Shown here: positions 1 through 6,027 of the stretch, piece after piece | Numbering within the stretch: position 1 is the first letter of the stretch | How the letters are laid out: each line of letters starts with the position of its first letter | Assembly (NCBI RefSeq): GCF_028737195.1 | Contig: NZ_JAQZAJ010000001.1 | Span: 62,001-126,000 of the forward strand | Reading direction: 5' to 3' | DNA: 64,000 bases | From: Pseudovibrio exalbescens | GTDB lineage: Bacteria; Pseudomonadota; Alphaproteobacteria; Rhizobiales; Stappiaceae | The notes under the pieces: generated by a model | The model's database searches: none | What the model was told of the DNA's origin: nothing | What the model saw: the letters and a program-made list of their open reading frames with translations, nothing else | Program-made: the position numbers and the translations under genes

Positions 1-245
1 ACTCTGTAGGTGCAGGTTTCACTCACTACTTCACGCCTGAGCTGGCTGCTTCTGTAGACGGTTCTTACCTCTCTGTAGAAGACGCAAGTGATTACACCCG
101 CGCGGCTGTGACCACCTCTCTTGGTTGGTACCCAGTTTCTGGTCTCGTAATCGCTGGTGAATTCGGTTGGGCATCTGAAGATGATGACGTTGCAACCTAC
201 GATGACGAATACCTCCTCGGTACTCGCATTCAGTACACCTTCTAA
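1..245 (+). CDS. Porin, Omp2b/RopA-like, 3' end only
   Basis: This is the C-terminal 80 codons of an outer-membrane porin whose start lies left of the window; the first full codon begins at base 3 and TAA ends at 245. The translation shows the last beta strands of a 16-stranded trimeric porin: GAGFTHYFTPELAASVDGSY, then LGWYPVSGLVIAGEFGW, and the terminal GTRIQYTF. A C-terminal Phe is the usual recognition signal for the BAM assembly machinery. The same closing pattern (GWYPVSGMVVALD, IGARVQYTF) ends the two genes that follow, so this is the first member of a tandem porin array. Porins of this family carry small hydrophilic solutes across the outer membrane. Codon use is strongly biased (GGT, CGT, AAC, CTG), as in highly expressed genes. 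The identification is secure; the N-terminal half and the leader cannot be seen. Confidence 0.93.
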   Translation, partial: SVGAGFTHYFTPELAASVDGSYLSVEDASDYTRAAVTTSLGWYPVSGLVIAGEFGWASEDDDVATYDDEYLLGTRIQYTF

Positions 246-454: not shown

Positions 455-470
455 TGTGATATGGATCACA
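455..470. promoter_or_regulatory. CRP-like palindrome upstream of the second porin
   Basis: TGTGATATGGATCACA is a perfect inverted repeat of the form TGTGA-N6-TCACA, the classical binding site of CRP-type cAMP receptor proteins. It lies 318 nt before the porin ATG. A weak promoter (TTAACA at 426-431, TATTGT at 450-455) overlaps it, and an AT-rich stretch follows, so whether it activates or represses cannot be told. The same box occurs at 2100-2115 and, with one mismatch, at 4023-4038. The binding protein in this organism is unknown; assignment to the CRP/FNR superfamily is inference. Confidence 0.6.
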
Positions 471-788
471 CTTTATTATGGATTATCGATTATTTCTCCT
501 TAAGTCTTTGAGAATAAACGATAAAATTGTGTGCTTCTTTCGCCACACTCCCCTTTGATAGTGTGGCTTCAGTGCCGCTCAAACGTGGAGGCGCGTTGCT
601 CAGCGACGCGGATGGGAGCATTAAGAGTGCCACAAGCTGATTGCATGTATCTGCCCTATGGCCGCGAAGGTTGTGGCGGGCAGGTCGGGGGCGACGGCTT
701 GAAGTAGGGCACTTGGGGAAACGCTCGTCCACACAGCGCATTCACCGGCCCTCTATCAGTAATTTGAGACTCATAGAGGTCAGGACAC
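471..788 (+). promoter_or_regulatory. Long structured 5' region of the second porin
   Basis: No gene is visible here. An AT-rich 15-mer, AATAAACGATAAAAT (513-527), recurs with one change upstream of the third porin (2200-2214). Two hairpins follow: GCCACACT/AGTGTGGC (542-549 with 560-567) and GCGTTGC/GCGACGC (593-599 with 603-609, one G-U pair). The region ends in GAGACTCATAGAGG (765-779) and the 12-mer AGGTCAGGACAC (777-788), which touches the ATG and contains the Shine-Dalgarno AGAGG. This end is shared with the third porin and is complementary to the loop at 4097-4108. The transcription start is not determined, so the leader length is uncertain. Confidence 0.5.
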
Positions 789-2000
789 ATGAAACTTAAA
801 GCAATTTTGCTTGCAACTGCTGGTTTTGCTGTTGCAGGTTCCGCATCCGCTGCTGATCTGCCAGTAGTAGCTGAGCCAGTTGATTACGTACAGGTTTGCG
901 ACGCATACGGCGCAGGCTTCTTCAAGATCCCAGGTAAGGACACTTGCATTAAGATCGGTGGTCGTATCCGTACTCAGATCATCTCTGACAACCTGGACGA
1001 CAACAACGATGAAACCAAGTACGAAGACTACGAAGCGCTTGCTCGTGGTTACCTGTACCTGACTTCCATGACCGACACTGAAATCGGCCTCATCAAGACT
1101 TTCACTGAACTTTATAGCCAGTGGGATGAAAACGGTGGTGAGCGCGCACGTGTTGGTGATGCTTACATTCAGATCGGTACTGACTTTGCAAACGTCTTCA
1201 TCGGTCGTGATGCATCTCAGTTCGATGGTTTCACCGGTGCAGTAGATATCGGCGTTATCGATCGTAACTTCTCTGACCAGTCTACCCTACAGTTTGCTCT
1301 GACCAAGTCTCTGGGCAACGGCGTATCCGCAACTGTAGCAGTGGAAGATTCTTCTTACCGCAATGGTAGCGACAACTCTATCGACTTCGTTGGTAAGGTT
1401 GGCATCTCTCAGGGTTGGGGTTCTTTCGAAGTTGCTGGTGCAACCCACGCAATTGCTGACGAAGCATCCTTCAACGACAGTGATGGCGATGCTGTTGCGA
1501 CTCTTCGCAAAGACGACAGCACTGGTTACGCAGTTCGCGGTACGGTGACCTTTAACCTGGACATGATTGCACCAGGCGATGCATTCGTATTCCAGGCAGC
1601 TTATGCTGATTCCGCTGCAAGCTATCTCAATGCTTCTCTGTCAGATGAAGCATTCGACAGAGCTGGCGCTATTCGTTCTGCCGATGCTGCTATGCTCGAC
1701 GTACTCGGCGCAAAGGGCTACTCTCTGGTAGCGGCGTTCAGCCACTACTGGACTCCAGAAATTGCGACCACCATTGATGGTTCCTGGATGAGCCTCGAAG
1801 CTGACTACAACAACAACGGTTTTGACTTCGACGCTGACATGGATCGCTGGGCAATTGATGCTTCCATCGGTTGGTACCCAGTATCTGGCATGGTTGTAGC
1901 GCTGGACGCAGGTTTTGCGAGCACTGACTACGACGTCGAAGGCGAAGATCGTGACTTCGACGAAGCCAAGATCGGTGCACGTGTACAGTACACCTTCTAA
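789..2000 (+). CDS. Outer-membrane porin (rhizobial Omp2b/RopA family)
   Basis: A 403-residue general-diffusion porin. Residues 1-21 form a Sec signal peptide with a predicted cut in SASA-AD. The mature start, DLPVVAEPVDYVQVC, and the pair Cys37/Cys53 in VCDAYGAGFF...DTC are the hallmark of the alphaproteobacterial porin_2 family, where the two cysteines are thought to form a disulfide. The rest alternates aromatic and acidic beta strands and ends GARVQYTF, with the C-terminal Phe used for outer-membrane insertion. AGAGG, 8 nt before the ATG, decides the start. Codon bias is very strong, pointing to abundant expression. The first 190 bases are almost identical to the gene at 2628, while the loops differ. 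The region around residues 215-240 and 285-305 carries extra loop sequence compared with that paralogue, which explains its greater length. Substrate selectivity cannot be read from sequence. Confidence 0.95.
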   Translation: MKLKAILLATAGFAVAGSASAADLPVVAEPVDYVQVCDAYGAGFFKIPGKDTCIKIGGRIRTQIISDNLDDNNDETKYEDYEALARGYLYLTSMTDTEIGLIKTFTELYSQWDENGGERARVGDAYIQIGTDFANVFIGRDASQFDGFTGAVDIGVIDRNFSDQSTLQFALTKSLGNGVSATVAVEDSSYRNGSDNSIDFVGKVGISQGWGSFEVAGATHAIADEASFNDSDGDAVATLRKDDSTGYAVRGTVTFNLDMIAPGDAFVFQAAYADSAASYLNASLSDEAFDRAGAIRSADAAMLDVLGAKGYSLVAAFSHYWTPEIATTIDGSWMSLEADYNNNGFDFDADMDRWAIDASIGWYPVSGMVVALDAGFASTDYDVEGEDRDFDEAKIGARVQYTF

Positions 2001-2099: not shown

Positions 2100-2115
2100 T
2101 GTGACGGCGATCACA
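2100..2115. promoter_or_regulatory. CRP-like palindrome upstream of the third porin
   Basis: TGTGACGGCGATCACA matches TGTGA-N6-TCACA perfectly in both arms. It lies 512 nt before the ATG at 2628. A weak -10-like hexamer TGTAAT starts at 2128. It is the second perfect copy of this box in the porin array; the six central bases differ from the copy at 455-470, so it is the arms that are conserved, as expected for a protein binding site. Confidence 0.6.
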
Positions 2116-2627
2116 TTGTCTGTGCTTTGTAATTGATTGGTTGTAGCGGCGTGGGGACGTCAGCTGAATGCTCACCTCTGGTATGTCATTCCTTCCCGAA
2201 ATAATCGATAAAATAAATAATAATATCATAGTCTTAGGTGGAGGCGTGTTTAGGTTTGGTGTCATCCTGTTACGGTGATGTACTTAGGGTTGCGCACTCC
2301 AGGATTGTACGTTTTGAAGAGTTTGACTGGGGTGTGACAGGCGCGAAGGGGGCTGTTTAAGTTGTGTCGAAAAAGACACAGCCGAATATCACTGATTTCT
2401 AATTGAGTTCTTATTACGAGATACAACCTTGCGGCTCACAGCGCCGTGAGGCATCAACAGTGGCGTTGGCGCTAGACGAAGCGTTTGGATCATTTCACCG
2501 GGGGCGGTGAGGGGTTGATCCAAACCACCAGCGACAACAGGGGTAAGAGGAAGTGAAAGCCTGCTCCAAACAGTGCTTTCAAGAACTTCTTCAACACAAA
2601 TTAGAGACTCTTTAGAGGTCAGGACAC
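2116..2627 (+). promoter_or_regulatory. Long structured 5' region of the third porin
   Basis: No gene is visible in these 512 bases. The AT-rich element AATAATCGATAAAAT lies at 2200-2214 (14 of 15 identical to 513-527). Hairpins follow: TGTGTC/GACACA (2363-2368 with 2375-2380), CTCAC/GTGAG, and a perfect 10-bp stem GTTTGGATCA (2483-2492) with TGATCCAAAC (2516-2525) that encloses an inner CACC/GGTG stem. The region ends GAGACTC then AGGTCAGGACAC (2616-2627) directly before the ATG, the same ribosome binding site as the second porin. Long hairpin-rich leaders suggest post-transcriptional control; that is inference. Confidence 0.5.
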
Positions 2628-3701
2628 ATGAAACTTAAAGCACTTCTGCTTGCAACTGCTGGTTTTGCTGTTGCAGGTTCCGCATCCGCTGCTGATCTGC
2701 CAGTAGTAGCTGAGCCAGTAGACTACGTACAGGTTTGCGACGCATACGGCGCAGGCTTCTTCAAGATCCCAGGTAAGGACACCTGCCTGAAGATCGGTGG
2801 TCGTATCCGTACTCAGTTTGTTACTGACAACCTGCAGGATAACGAAGGTGAAAAGTACGAAGATTACGACGCATACGTTCGTGGTTATCTGTACCTGACT
2901 TCCATGACCGACACTGAAATCGGCCTGATCAAGACGTACACCGAGTTCTACAGCGAGTGGGATGAAAAAGCTGCGGGCACTTCAAAGGTTGGTTCTGCAT
3001 ACGTTCAGATTGGTGCGTCTTTCGCTGATATCCTGATCGGTCGTACAACTTCTCAGTTTGACGGCTTCACCGGTGCTGTTGATGTTGGTGTAATTGGCCG
3101 TAACTGGTCTGATGAATCCACTCTCCAGATTGCTCTGACGAAGTCCTTCGGCAACGGCGTAACTGCTGCTATCTCTGCAGAAGATTCTTCCTACCGTGAT
3201 GGCGACACCAACTCTGCTGACTACGTCGGTAAGATCGGTATCTCCCAGGGTTGGGGTGCATTCGAAGTTGCTGCTGCCCTGCACGACACTGTAAAGGGTG
3301 CTGAAGACAACTACGGTTACGCCATTCGTGGTACTGCAACCATCAACCTGGACATGATTGCTGCTGGCGATAAGTTCGTATTCCAGGCTGCATACGCAGA
3401 TGCCGCTTCTTCTTACCTCGGCAAGTCCACTGCTGCATGGGATGCAGCTGGTCAGAGCGCTTGGGCACTGGGCGCTGGCTTCACCCACTACTGGACTTCA
3501 GAAGTTGCAACTTCTATCGACGGTTCCTACCTCACCAACGACGATGCTGACTATGACCGTTGGGCAATCGATGCTTCCATCGGTTGGTACCCAGTTTCCG
3601 GTATGGTTGTAGCTCTTGACGGTGGTTTTGCATCTGAAGATGCAGCTGGTGTAGACACCGACGAAGCCAAGATCGGTGCTCGTGTACAGTACACCTTCTA
3701 A
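2628..3701 (+). CDS. Outer-membrane porin (rhizobial Omp2b/RopA family)
   Basis: A 357-residue paralogue of the preceding porin. The signal peptide, the DLPVVAEPVDYVQVC start, Cys37/Cys53 and the final GARVQYTF are all conserved, and the first 190 bases match the neighbour almost base for base, including many synonymous positions. That suggests recent duplication or gene conversion of the 5' part. The middle and the surface loops are shorter and different in charge, so the two proteins probably form pores of different preference. AGAGG, 8 nt before the ATG, is the ribosome binding site and falls inside the 12-mer complementary to the candidate small RNA at 4097-4108. Codon bias is as strong as in the neighbour. 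It is monocistronic, with its own terminator. Function as a trimeric diffusion pore follows from the family; the solute range is unknown. Confidence 0.95.
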   Translation: MKLKALLLATAGFAVAGSASAADLPVVAEPVDYVQVCDAYGAGFFKIPGKDTCLKIGGRIRTQFVTDNLQDNEGEKYEDYDAYVRGYLYLTSMTDTEIGLIKTYTEFYSEWDEKAAGTSKVGSAYVQIGASFADILIGRTTSQFDGFTGAVDVGVIGRNWSDESTLQIALTKSFGNGVTAAISAEDSSYRDGDTNSADYVGKIGISQGWGAFEVAAALHDTVKGAEDNYGYAIRGTATINLDMIAAGDKFVFQAAYADAASSYLGKSTAAWDAAGQSAWALGAGFTHYWTSEVATSIDGSYLTNDDADYDRWAIDASIGWYPVSGMVVALDGGFASEDAAGVDTDEAKIGARVQYTF

Positions 3702-3728
3702 TTTGACTTAACCGTCATTTAGATCGGG

Positions 3729-3756
3729 AAGGGCAGGCCTTTGGTCTGCCCTTTTT
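3729..3756 (+). terminator. Rho-independent terminator of the third porin
   Basis: AAGGGCAG (3729-3736) pairs with CTGCCCTT (3746-3753), followed by TTT. It starts 28 nt after the stop codon. Confidence 0.85.
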
Positions 3757-4022
3757 GATTCCGGGTTGGACGGAAGCGACTGCAAGGCCGATGGATCAGG
3801 CCGCGCGGGGCCATCCCAAGGCAAGATCAACTCTGGTTAACGAAGTGTTAAGCCCTTGTTGCGCAGGACCTATCTGCGGTTCTTCGTTGACCGTTTTTCT
3901 TCAAGTTATTGATTTGAATGCGCAATTTTTCAGGGCGAGGGCGCTTTTGGAAGTCCCTAAGCAAATTGCACTGCATACTATTCGGGAATGGATTGCTCTC
4001 TACAGGGCAAATAAGCTGAGGG
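3757..4022. other. Intergenic sequence without a recognisable gene
   Basis: These 266 bases lie between the terminator of the third porin and the CRP-like box at 4023. A 90-codon open frame crosses them, but it has no ribosome binding site, an unbiased codon pattern unlike the porins, and no family resemblance. I see no other structure. Confidence 0.5.
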
Positions 4023-4066
4023 TGTGACGCTCGACACAGACCAACTACATGAAGTGGTCATATAAC
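4023..4066 (+). promoter_or_regulatory. CRP-like box plus -10 hexamer before the candidate small RNA
   Basis: TGTGACGCTCGACACA (4023-4038) fits TGTGA-N6-TCACA with one mismatch in the right arm. TATAAC at 4061-4066 resembles a -10 hexamer, and no good -35 hexamer lies 17 bases before it. The box centre (4030.5) would be near -42 relative to a start at about 4073, which is the spacing of class II CRP-activated promoters. The fit is suggestive only; the start site is not measured. Confidence 0.45.
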
Positions 4067-4072
4067 AGCGCA

Positions 4073-4225
4073 TAAGATTTCTCTGATTGGAGTTTGGTGT
4101 CCTGACCTTCCAATCAGTCTCTGGCCCGGTGGTTCCAACCCACCGGGCTCCCCCTGACTACCCCTCAGGGGCCCTATAGGAGGCGCCTCATTCGCCTGGT
4201 GTTCGCGCCGGGCTTTGTCCGTTTT
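4073..4225 (+). ncRNA. Candidate small RNA with a loop antisense to the porin start sites
   Basis: Three perfect hairpins follow each other with almost no linker. Hairpin 1 is CTGATTGGA (4083-4091) with TCCAATCAG (4109-4117) around a 17-nt loop. Hairpin 2 is GCCCGGTGG (4124-4132) with CCACCGGGC (4140-4148). Hairpin 3 is CCCCTGA (4151-4157) with TCAGGGG (4165-4171). Bases 4097-4108 in loop 1, GTGTCCTGACCT, are the exact reverse complement of AGGTCAGGACAC, which directly precedes the ATG of the porins at 789 and 2628 and holds their Shine-Dalgarno. GTTT (4092-4095) can also pair with AAAC after the ATG, leaving the start codon in a small internal loop. A promoter-like arrangement precedes it. 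The 3' end is uncertain: a weak stem CGGGC/GTCCG (4209-4213 with 4217-4221) before TTTT is the best candidate. I recognise no known RNA family. It could instead be a remnant of an inverted porin leader, although the flanking perfect stem argues against that. Confidence 0.5.
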
Positions 4226-4839
4226 GTGCCTCCCAATGGCGCGCCTTGCCTCCCACACATGGTCTTGCTTGCCGGGCGCTAGGGCGTTTGCTCTGCGCTC
4301 CTGTTCCCTTTTGGGGGGCGGAGCGGGGAGCTGCACCGTGCCTTTGGTTGCCTCCGCTATTCCATTCCCTCAATTCTTGGTGCTGGTCTTGGGCAGTCTG
4401 AAACCTGCCCCCTTGCGTTTGATACTGTAAGGTCTCAGGGGCAACCGCTGGACAGCGCGCACCGCCCAATCCCGTGTCGGCGGCCATTTACCTCTTGAAC
4501 CTTTTGGCAATTCAACCACCTACGCTCCCGGCCTTGTCTTGGCAGTACCGTTTCACCTTGAAAGAACGTGCCCTCAGTATCCATGGGCTGTTTCCGGTGG
4601 CTACGGAAAAGCCTCTAACAGATGGCCTCCCTTCATTTGCAGGTCCCGCGTATTTCAGCCCTCAATCTGCAGAATTGTTTGAATTGCCCATTGTCGCAAT
4701 TGTCTAGCTGTTCGCTGCTGATCTTTTTCAGTCAGTCATTTTGCAATTGATTTTTTTCTCCGCCGCTTTCTCCTGAGCGCTTTTTACTGCTCTCAAGGGG
4801 AGTGAAAGCCGGAGAGGGTCTTCCAGAGAGGGCACTGGG
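4226..4839. other. Intergenic sequence before the fourth porin, no convincing gene
   Basis: The first 200 bases are pyrimidine-rich on the + strand and contain several overlapping open frames on the - strand, none with a ribosome binding site or a recognisable product. The last 100 bases become AT-rich and should hold the promoter of the porin at 4840, but I cannot point to a clear -35/-10 pair. This gene does not share the AGGTCAGGACAC start-site element of the other two. Confidence 0.45.
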
Positions 4840-6027
4840 ATGTTTCGTGGAACGATTTTTTTGCCGCTAGCCGTTATTGGTTTGGGTTCACATGCGGACG
4901 CTGCAGATCTAGCGCCATTCCCGCCCGTTGTTGAGCCGATTTCATATGTTCAGGTTTGCGAGCGCTATGGTGCTGGCTATTTCGTCATTCCGGGAACCGA
5001 GACCTGCTTGCGCGTGGCGGGGCGCATTCGCACCGATGTCCAGTTTCAGGATTTTGGCAGCCGCCCCAGCAATTGGTCACAGCGCGATGAGAACGATGTT
5101 CGTTTTCGTGCAAGGGCTTATGTGTATCTTGATGCCTTTACAGAAACCGAGTTCGGCTTGTTGCGCGCCTACAGTGAAACAAGGTTCACCAGCGACAGCG
5201 ATACAGTTCGCGATGATGACGAAGATGACACACTGGTCGATCTGGAGGTTGGCTACATTCAGTTCGGTGGGTTCACCTTTGGCCGCACGCAGTCTTTCTT
5301 CGATTTCTTCACGGGTGCCACCTACGGCGCGGTAGACCGGAACTTTTCCGATGACAAAACGTGGGTCGCAGCCTACACCGCCTCGATGGGCGGTCCGGTG
5401 TCCTTCTCAGTGTCTGTTGAGGACATTTCAGAGCGGGTGAACGGCACATTCGACGCCGTCACGGACCTTGATGGTTCCGGTGGTAACCGTTGGCCAGCTG
5501 GCGTTGTTGCGCTTCGCGGCGCGGACAGCTGGGGCTCTGCCCAGGTCTCCGCTGCCATTCAGGAGGCCCGGCCTCTTTCTGCTGCGGCAGACAGTGAAAT
5601 GGGCCTTGCTTTCGGCGCAGGGGTGATCTTCAACTTGCCGATGCTTGCTCAAGGTGATGCGCTTGCCTTGCAGGTTCAGTACGCAGAGGCCGCCATGTCC
5701 TACATCGGCGCGACCGATGTCTTCGATAGTTACTACGACGGAACAAGAACCAGAAAAACAAAGGGTTTTGCCCTGTCAGGTGGCTTCACGCACTACTTCA
5801 CACCGGAAGTGCGAACAGACTTTGACGCCAGCTATGCACAGGTAGATACGCCGCGCGGTGCCCCACAAAACGACTACACGCGGTATGCACTCGACTTTGA
5901 TGTGGCGTGGACGCCGGTTCCAGGCCTGGAGTTCGGCGTGGACATTGGATACGCCAATATCGATCCCGACAATGAAAAAACCTCGGAAGAAGCGAGTGCC
6001 ATTCTTCGTGCTCAAAGAACCTTTTAA
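4840..6027 (+). CDS. Divergent outer-membrane porin
   Basis: A 395-residue porin of the same family, but clearly older in origin than its neighbours. The signal peptide ends near HADA-AD, and the family signature is kept as ISYVQVCERYGAGYF...ETC with Cys40 and Cys56. The body is a run of amphipathic beta strands and the last residues are AILRAQRTF, with the terminal Phe. GAGAGGGC before the ATG gives the ribosome binding site. Its codon use is ordinary for this window and lacks the strong bias of the two previous porins, so it is probably less expressed or conditionally expressed. Its leader is unrelated to theirs and lacks the putative small-RNA target. It is followed by a hairpin shared with the convergent gene. 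The solute is unknown. Confidence 0.92.
   Translation: MFRGTIFLPLAVIGLGSHADAADLAPFPPVVEPISYVQVCERYGAGYFVIPGTETCLRVAGRIRTDVQFQDFGSRPSNWSQRDENDVRFRARAYVYLDAFTETEFGLLRAYSETRFTSDSDTVRDDDEDDTLVDLEVGYIQFGGFTFGRTQSFFDFFTGATYGAVDRNFSDDKTWVAAYTASMGGPVSFSVSVEDISERVNGTFDAVTDLDGSGGNRWPAGVVALRGADSWGSAQVSAAIQEARPLSAAADSEMGLAFGAGVIFNLPMLAQGDALALQVQYAEAAMSYIGATDVFDSYYDGTRTRKTKGFALSGGFTHYFTPEVRTDFDASYAQVDTPRGAPQNDYTRYALDFDVAWTPVPGLEFGVDIGYANIDPDNEKTSEEASAILRAQRTF

Follow-up and report, generated by a model that had tools for sequence, protein, structure and literature searches.

Does the hairpin-rich gap between two porin genes of a Pseudovibrio genome (Stappiaceae, Hyphomicrobiales) encode a small RNA directed against the start sites of neighboring porins? 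The window, by which we mean the whole 64-kb stretch of DNA analyzed (contig C1:62001-126000 of a 4.39-Mb genome, G000), contains a cluster of Porin_2 genes, two of which begin before the window and three of which are complete inside it. A first-pass annotation had proposed an antisense RNA encoded within this porin array. The proposal is supported by the analysis reported here, although it had missed both a family of related elements in porin 3' untranslated regions (3'UTRs) and the antisense part of the linker that follows the first hairpin. The element is, with good probability, a free-standing member of an antisense RNA family that blocks the translation of paralogous Porin_2 genes in the Stappiaceae.

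Architecture of the Element and Its Surroundings

RNA folding and inspection of the sequence bear out the three consecutive hairpins of 9, 9, and 7 bp, the first with a 17-nt loop, from which the proposal had started (Table 1). The predicted fold of the segment 4061-4240 has an energy of -76.3 kcal/mol (z -4.73), and none of 200 shuffled sequences was equally stable. The stem of H1 shows covariation both across the genus and across the family, and 98.5% of the H2 pairs are retained among 58 distinct family copies. H2 is probably the 3' end of the RNA; no U-run follows it in the window. H3 lies outside the family covariance model, and a lookalike hairpin is seen by eye in two other genomes (G011 and G010).

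Table 1. Features of the porin cluster and of the antisense element (window coordinates; energies in kcal/mol)
Feature	Position	Strand	Basis and remarks
Porin 3' end	1..245	+	PF02530 match; start outside window, carries AGGTCAGGAATTATG; duplex -26.4
Perfect CRP-like box	455..470	+	upstream of porin 789
Target site AGGTCAGGACAC before ATG 789	777..788	+	exact 12-nt match; duplex -37.1; with folding cost -4.9
Porin (Porin_2), candidate target	789..2000	+	PF02530 match G000:C1:62855-64024; frame
Perfect CRP-like box	2100..2115	+	upstream of porin 2628, ~520 nt before ATG
Target site AGAGAC...AGGTCAGGACAC before ATG 2628	2603..2627	+	exact 12-nt match; duplex -39.2; with folding cost -14.3
Porin (Porin_2), candidate target	2628..3701	+	PF02530 match G000:C1:64694-65653; frame
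Terminator-like hairpin and T-run	3731..3756	+	downstream of porin 2628-3701; by eye
CRP-like box TGTGACGCTCGACACA	4023..4038	+	1 mismatch to TGTGA-N6-TCACA; centre 30.5 nt before TATAAC
TATAAC, candidate -10 element	4061..4066	+	sequence
H1, antisense hairpin	4083-4091 with 4109-4117 (CTGATTGGA/TCCAATCAG)	+	9 bp; 17-nt loop 4092-4108; sequence, fold
12-nt antisense GTGTCCTGACCT	4097..4108	+	exact reverse complement of 777-788 and 2616-2627
Linker seed GTCTCT after H1	4117..4122	+	pairs with AGAGAC (2603-2608) and GAGAC (766-770); duplex predictions
H2, GC-rich hairpin	4124-4132 with 4140-4148 (4124..4148)	+	9 bp; sequence, fold
H3, hairpin	4151-4157 with 4165-4171 (4151..4171)	+	7 bp; sequence, fold
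Porin (Porin_2), without target site	4840..6027	+	PF02530 match

The terminator-like hairpin behind porin 2628 sets the element apart from the upstream porin message. Ahead of the hairpins, the CRP-like box and the TATAAC motif are located as the first-pass annotation had them, TATAAC being weak as a -10 element because a promoter scan found no sigma-70 site across 3700-4850. At up to one mismatch, TGTGA-N6-TCACA occurs at three sites only in the 64 kb (perfect at 455 and 2100, and at 4023); at up to two mismatches it is not enriched in the window (14 sites versus 28 expected). Among the 16 window-type copies of the genus, 11 are preceded by a CRP-like box with at most one mismatch and one more by a box with two mismatches, and no box worth the name is present before the other four. 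The signs of a separate transcript for the window type are an upstream terminator-like hairpin, this box in 11/16 copies, and TATAAC, with neither a sigma-70 match nor a U-run; transcription of the predicted RNA and its control by CRP are what we infer.

Should the perfect CRP-like boxes at 455 and 2100 mark promoters, porins 789 and 2628 would have leaders of ~300-500 nt, and leaders of that length (455-789, 2100-2628) would offer room for additional RNA control. Many Pseudovibrio genomes (loci L026, L031, and others) have an inverted repeat, e.g. TTTTGGTTT..CAAAACC, between the CRP-like box and H1; a repeat of this type is not present in the window.

Complementarity to Porin Leaders

The 12-nt match between the H1 loop and the starts of porins 789 and 2628, on which the first-pass annotation had built its case, is exact, and the 12-mer has three exact copies only in the 64 kb (4097-4108, 777-788, and 2616-2627). 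Its claim that such a match is improbable by chance also stands: at up to one mismatch there are five sites in the window versus 0.30 expected, and the H1 region, whose longest Watson-Crick run is 12 nt with both of these porin leaders, does not exceed 9 nt with any of 49 other leaders in the 64 kb. Genome-wide, the pattern AGGTCAGGA-N1-6-ATG has seven occurrences versus none in reversed-pattern controls; three of the seven are porin starts of the window's cluster, and four precede frames of merely 32-57 aa. The linker seed GTCTCT, unrecorded in the first-pass annotation, is complementary to both target leaders. The two extra sites with one mismatch to the target site, AGGTAAGGACAC at 932-943 and 2771-2782, lie within the coding sequence of both target porins and may be codons of a conserved porin motif only, or a second weak target site.

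Once the cost of unfolding is included, predicted complex formation amounts to -14.3 kcal/mol with the leader of porin 2628, -4.9 with that of porin 789, and -4.0 with that of porin 4840, compared with a mean of -2.7 (sd 2.1, best -9.0 kcal/mol) for 49 control leaders. In these energy models, the 2628 leader stands out from the controls, and the small gain predicted for the 789 leader falls within their range. Porin 4840 is probably spared, as had been predicted from its leader: its longest Watson-Crick run with H1 is 7 nt, and its gain lies within the control range. For the window copy, raw duplex energy alone does not single out the porin leaders: ~10 unrelated 58-nt segments out of 6396 likewise reach -39 kcal/mol or lower. 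Shuffled versions of the window RNA pair as well in 14/500 cases and, in a separate run, in 4/200. Compared with its relatives, the window copy thus makes a weaker statistical case.

The element has the complementarity to a porin ribosome-binding site or early coding region by which base-pairing porin small RNAs are recognized, and a gene for Hfq is present in the genome. It is not a cis-encoded antisense RNA, being on the same strand as the target porins and outside them.

Conservation within Pseudovibrio

Of 61 genomes searched at the DNA level, 18 gave a match: all 16 members of the genus, counting the genome of the window itself, plus two genomes elsewhere with weak matches. By pattern search, the window-type copy is found once per genome and always in the porin cluster in 16/16 genus genomes. 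A pattern scan of named genomes returned 13 stretches, 12 of them from Pseudovibrio; a match in a verrucomicrobial MAG (L059) was judged by eye to be a chance match. In the 16 genus copies (13 distinct), loops and linkers vary and stems are kept: 96.8% of cells are paired, and both partners have changed in 6 of 19 pairs.

The first-pass annotation had suggested testing whether changes in the loop are matched by changes in the porin leaders. In all 16 genomes, the loop and linker are complementary to a porin start of their own genome; the annotation's counter-example, a kept stem with a mismatched loop, did not occur. The best leader of each cluster pairs at -35.5 to -45.6 kcal/mol (16/16), and the duplexes take in the linker seed, where GTCTCT meets AGAGAC, and extend in many species to the ATG. 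When each RNA was compared with 500 shuffled versions of itself, none paired as well in 14 genomes and one did so in G013, beside the 14 for G000.

In the window, 376 nt separate the porin stop from the start of the RNA model; the distance is 155-245 nt in 12 other genus genomes, three genomes (L024, L031, L033) being left out of this comparison. By eye, the porin upstream of the window-type copy ends in a terminator of its own, and the gene after the copy is, in the genus, also a porin. The porin's own terminator, the distance, and the CRP-like box together make the window-type copy resemble a gene of its own. In one genome (G012, loci L033 and L053), two porin frames of just 177 and 162 aa have target-like leaders (GGAAGGTCAAGAA); these are probably broken porins.

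A Wider RNA Family in Porin 3'UTRs

A first covariance model, made from the genus copies, detected a second copy in Pseudovibrio clusters as well as copies in genera g2 and g7, and a second model was made from 63 copies. With the second model at E<=0.001, the RNA is found in 49/87 genomes of the family and in three genera (Pseudovibrio 16/16, g7 3/3, g2 30/45); at this threshold it is absent from 15 of the 45 g2 genomes and found in 0/23 genomes of the other four family genera. Across 397 genomes of the order, 44 match at E<=0.05, every match at E<1e-5 is in genera g1, g2, and g7, and nothing outside the family reaches E 1e-3, the matches there starting at E 0.00106. The counts leave out matches above E 2e-4 in one model search or 0.01 in a later one, two loci with no adjoining porin (L135, L136), and L024:4854-4927, which resembles a plain terminator. 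Among 58 distinct family copies, 94.2% of positions are paired and 16 of 19 pairs have changed on both sides (0/500 shuffles). Rfam models match only a tRNA in the whole window and nothing in the relatives' loci L104, L107, L100, L023, and L032.

Structure, covariation, placement, and matched target sites were all computed directly, and placement separates the window type from the other copies. Of the latter, 47/50 lie 13-54 nt past a porin stop, that is, in a 3'UTR; the exceptions are a porin cut by the contig start (L111), a model overlapping the stop (L131), and a copy without an upstream porin (L118). Eleven of 13 later loci lie 7-15 nt past a porin stop, the remaining two being those of G063 and G068. 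These 47/50 and 11/13 copies have the location of a 3'UTR-derived RNA, and the window copy is not filed as one because of its distance from the porin stop and its position behind a terminator-like hairpin.

Emitters, Receivers, and Co-evolution

We call a porin with an RNA copy in its own 3'UTR an emitter, and a sister porin bearing the target site a receiver. The pairing analysis covered 66 copies, 42 genomes, and 146 porins, and the 3' sequence available for each best partner was 110 nt or longer. The best-pairing porin is a non-emitter for 66/66 copies, although the 26/26 from Pseudovibrio say little, since 65 of 75 porins there are non-emitters. Best pairing reaches -26 kcal/mol or better for 64/66 copies, the two below being those of G065 (-15.3) and a short 3'UTR copy of G001 (-23.4). 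For 58/66 copies, no more than 2 of 200 shuffled versions pair as well; for the remaining eight the numbers out of 200 are 3 (G090), 4 (G062), 3 (G098), 4 (G000), 8 (G026), 8 (G021), 55 (G031), and 88 (G065). Non-emitter leaders in g2 pair at a median of -34.3 (n=26) versus -24.6 for emitter leaders (n=34; p 6e-5); neither Pseudovibrio (p 0.30) nor g7 (p 0.19) shows a significant difference.

In tandem loci the best partner is usually the next porin, emitter and receiver being ~430-600 nt apart on one strand. Lone emitters have no site in their own leader, and their partner sits at another locus. This placement was examined as a prediction in five lone-locus genomes whose other porins were new to the analysis, and a receiver ending in a plain terminator was found elsewhere in 4/5 (-29.7 to -34.1); in the case of G065, an emitter is present and no receiver was found among its other porins. 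In g7 the local porins are unmatched, and a porin elsewhere pairs in 3/3 genomes (-26.9 to -30.2). Among the 13 later loci, the four whose genomes have a known receiver gave -36.6, -34.2, -34.5, and a weak -22.4. That receivers end in plain terminators was concluded from visual inspection and from the lack of a model match.

Two side observations concern the 3' ends. In g2, by eye, a conserved C-rich stretch (GTCCCC, CTCCCC) stands right after H2 in emitters, taking the place of the T-run of receivers. Emitters commonly have a further hairpin that spans the stop codon ahead of H1 (44/48 by a lax automatic count), and as receivers look similar, this feature carries no weight in the argument.

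RNAs pair better with the leaders of their own genome than with those of others. Raw duplex energies average -37.1 for own pairs versus -30.2 for swapped pairs in 41 genomes (0/20000 permutations) and -41.7 versus -39.5 within the genus (5/20000 as good), these permutation figures being guides rather than probabilities since the genomes are related. The linker seeds shift together with the leaders between clades: TCTCTCA/TGAGAGA in most Pseudovibrio, GTCATG/CATGAC in part of g2, and TCAATCA/TGATTGA in g7. An exception to this co-evolution is the pair G000 and G011, and the window RNA pairs at similar strength (-33.9 to -43.6) with leaders from each of the clades.

Alternative Explanations

If the 12-nt match were a coincidence in one of many gaps inspected, the modest statistics of the window copy taken alone would be expected; however, the structure is conserved and targets match in 42 genomes of three genera, and the family covariation together with the pairing of own versus swapped partners refutes chance as the whole explanation, so that its probability is negligible. 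The element might instead be a leader or attenuator of porin 4840, which lies on the same strand and whose counterpart in the genus is likewise a porin. Yet ~670 nt separate H3 from the ATG of this gene, the complementarity is to the leaders of other porins, and most family copies sit in 3'UTRs, and we regard this reading as scarcely credible.

A purely cis-acting role, in which the hairpins are porin terminators and the complementarity sequesters the start of the downstream porin in read-through transcripts, would suit the tandem loci, where emitter and receiver adjoin, and the terminator-like stem of H2. It is highly improbable, given lone emitters that match a porin at another locus (4/5 genomes tested and 3/3 in g7) and window-type copies that sit downstream of their targets. 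The pairing could also be real and not repressive: the 3'UTR hairpin might stabilize either mRNA or the two together, or the emitter 3'UTR might be titrated by a receiver leader that serves as its sponge. In most relatives the partners are indeed two mRNAs, and the sign of the effect is not given by any of the computations; the duplex nevertheless covers the Shine-Dalgarno sequence and often the ATG, where pairing normally blocks translation, and such a role seems unlikely to us. An antisense RNA that represses porin translation remains the preferred reading.

A Model of Porin Exclusion and Its Relation to Known RNAs

In the proposed mechanism, H1 would pair with the target leader through its loop and 3' arm, together with the linker that follows; the duplex would run from the upstream seed across the Shine-Dalgarno sequence to the start codon in many species and keep ribosomes off, and H2 would close the RNA. 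An emitter message would carry the antisense in its 3'UTR, the receiver itself ending in a plain terminator, and because of this location, making the emitter message would also make an antisense to the sister porin; here we infer both processing from the 3'UTR and repression. In Pseudovibrio, one copy would stand alone as a separate gene past the cluster; its CRP-like box resembles those of two of its targets, and through these shared boxes CRP would raise the porins and their repressor together in an incoherent feed-forward loop. Judged by sequence, the small RNA probably shuts down sister porins, so that one outer-membrane channel excludes another.

MicF, MicC, and the rhizobial AbcR RNAs are small RNAs that pair near the start of outer-membrane or transport mRNAs. 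The element differs from them in that most of its family copies originate in porin-gene 3'UTRs, and, in keeping with the first-pass annotation's view that it is none of these, it is matched by no Rfam covariance model for them or for any other family.

Closer parallels come from RNAs made from mRNA 3' ends, as described in the following sources. FadZ, from the 3'UTR of fadBA in Salmonella, is a repressor of several porin mRNAs, with which it pairs close to their start, and CRP activates both FadZ and ompD, giving an incoherent feed-forward loop (PMC10703908). Common to FadZ and the proposed family is a 3'UTR-type RNA acting on porin mRNAs, with the feed-forward logic proposed here too; in the published account, however, the parent of FadZ is a fatty-acid operon and pairing is in the early coding region (PMC10703908). 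In the family described here, a porin gene itself usually serves as the parent, pairing is predicted at the Shine-Dalgarno sequence, and the window copy is free-standing. MalH, from the 3' end of malEFG in E. coli, lowers ompC and ompA, and is similar as an mRNA-3'-end RNA acting on general porins (PMC8081044, PMC9438474), although its reported parent is a maltose transport operon rather than a porin, and host group and structure differ. NarS, from the 3'UTR of narK, represses nirC, so that two transporter genes cross-talk via a 3'UTR RNA (PMC9438474); narK and nirC are not close paralogues, whereas sister porins are paired here and free-standing copies exist as well.

A 3'UTR antisense is already known as a kind; new here would be a 3'UTR-type antisense of porin against porin, with free-standing relatives. 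Among the papers listed in searches of the open-licence PubMed Central literature, none describes such an RNA in these bacteria in its title or abstract. If the model is correct, one member of a porin family silences another via its own 3'UTR, with matched RNA-target pairs in dozens of species. This would provide a test bed for the origin of 3'UTR RNAs, their passage to free genes, and their co-evolution with targets, and would suggest how marine symbiont bacteria select among similar outer-membrane channels.

For the Stappiaceae in general, we lean towards the view that porin paralogues exclude one another at the RNA level, through an antisense in the emitter 3'UTR and a co-evolving site in the receiver, and that the free RNA genes are 3'UTR elements that outlived or left their porin. 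In G063 and G068 (L205, L209), the sequence upstream of the RNA reads, by eye, like a decayed porin 3' end followed by an intact antisense element, and these decayed ends suggest a route to free-standing copies.
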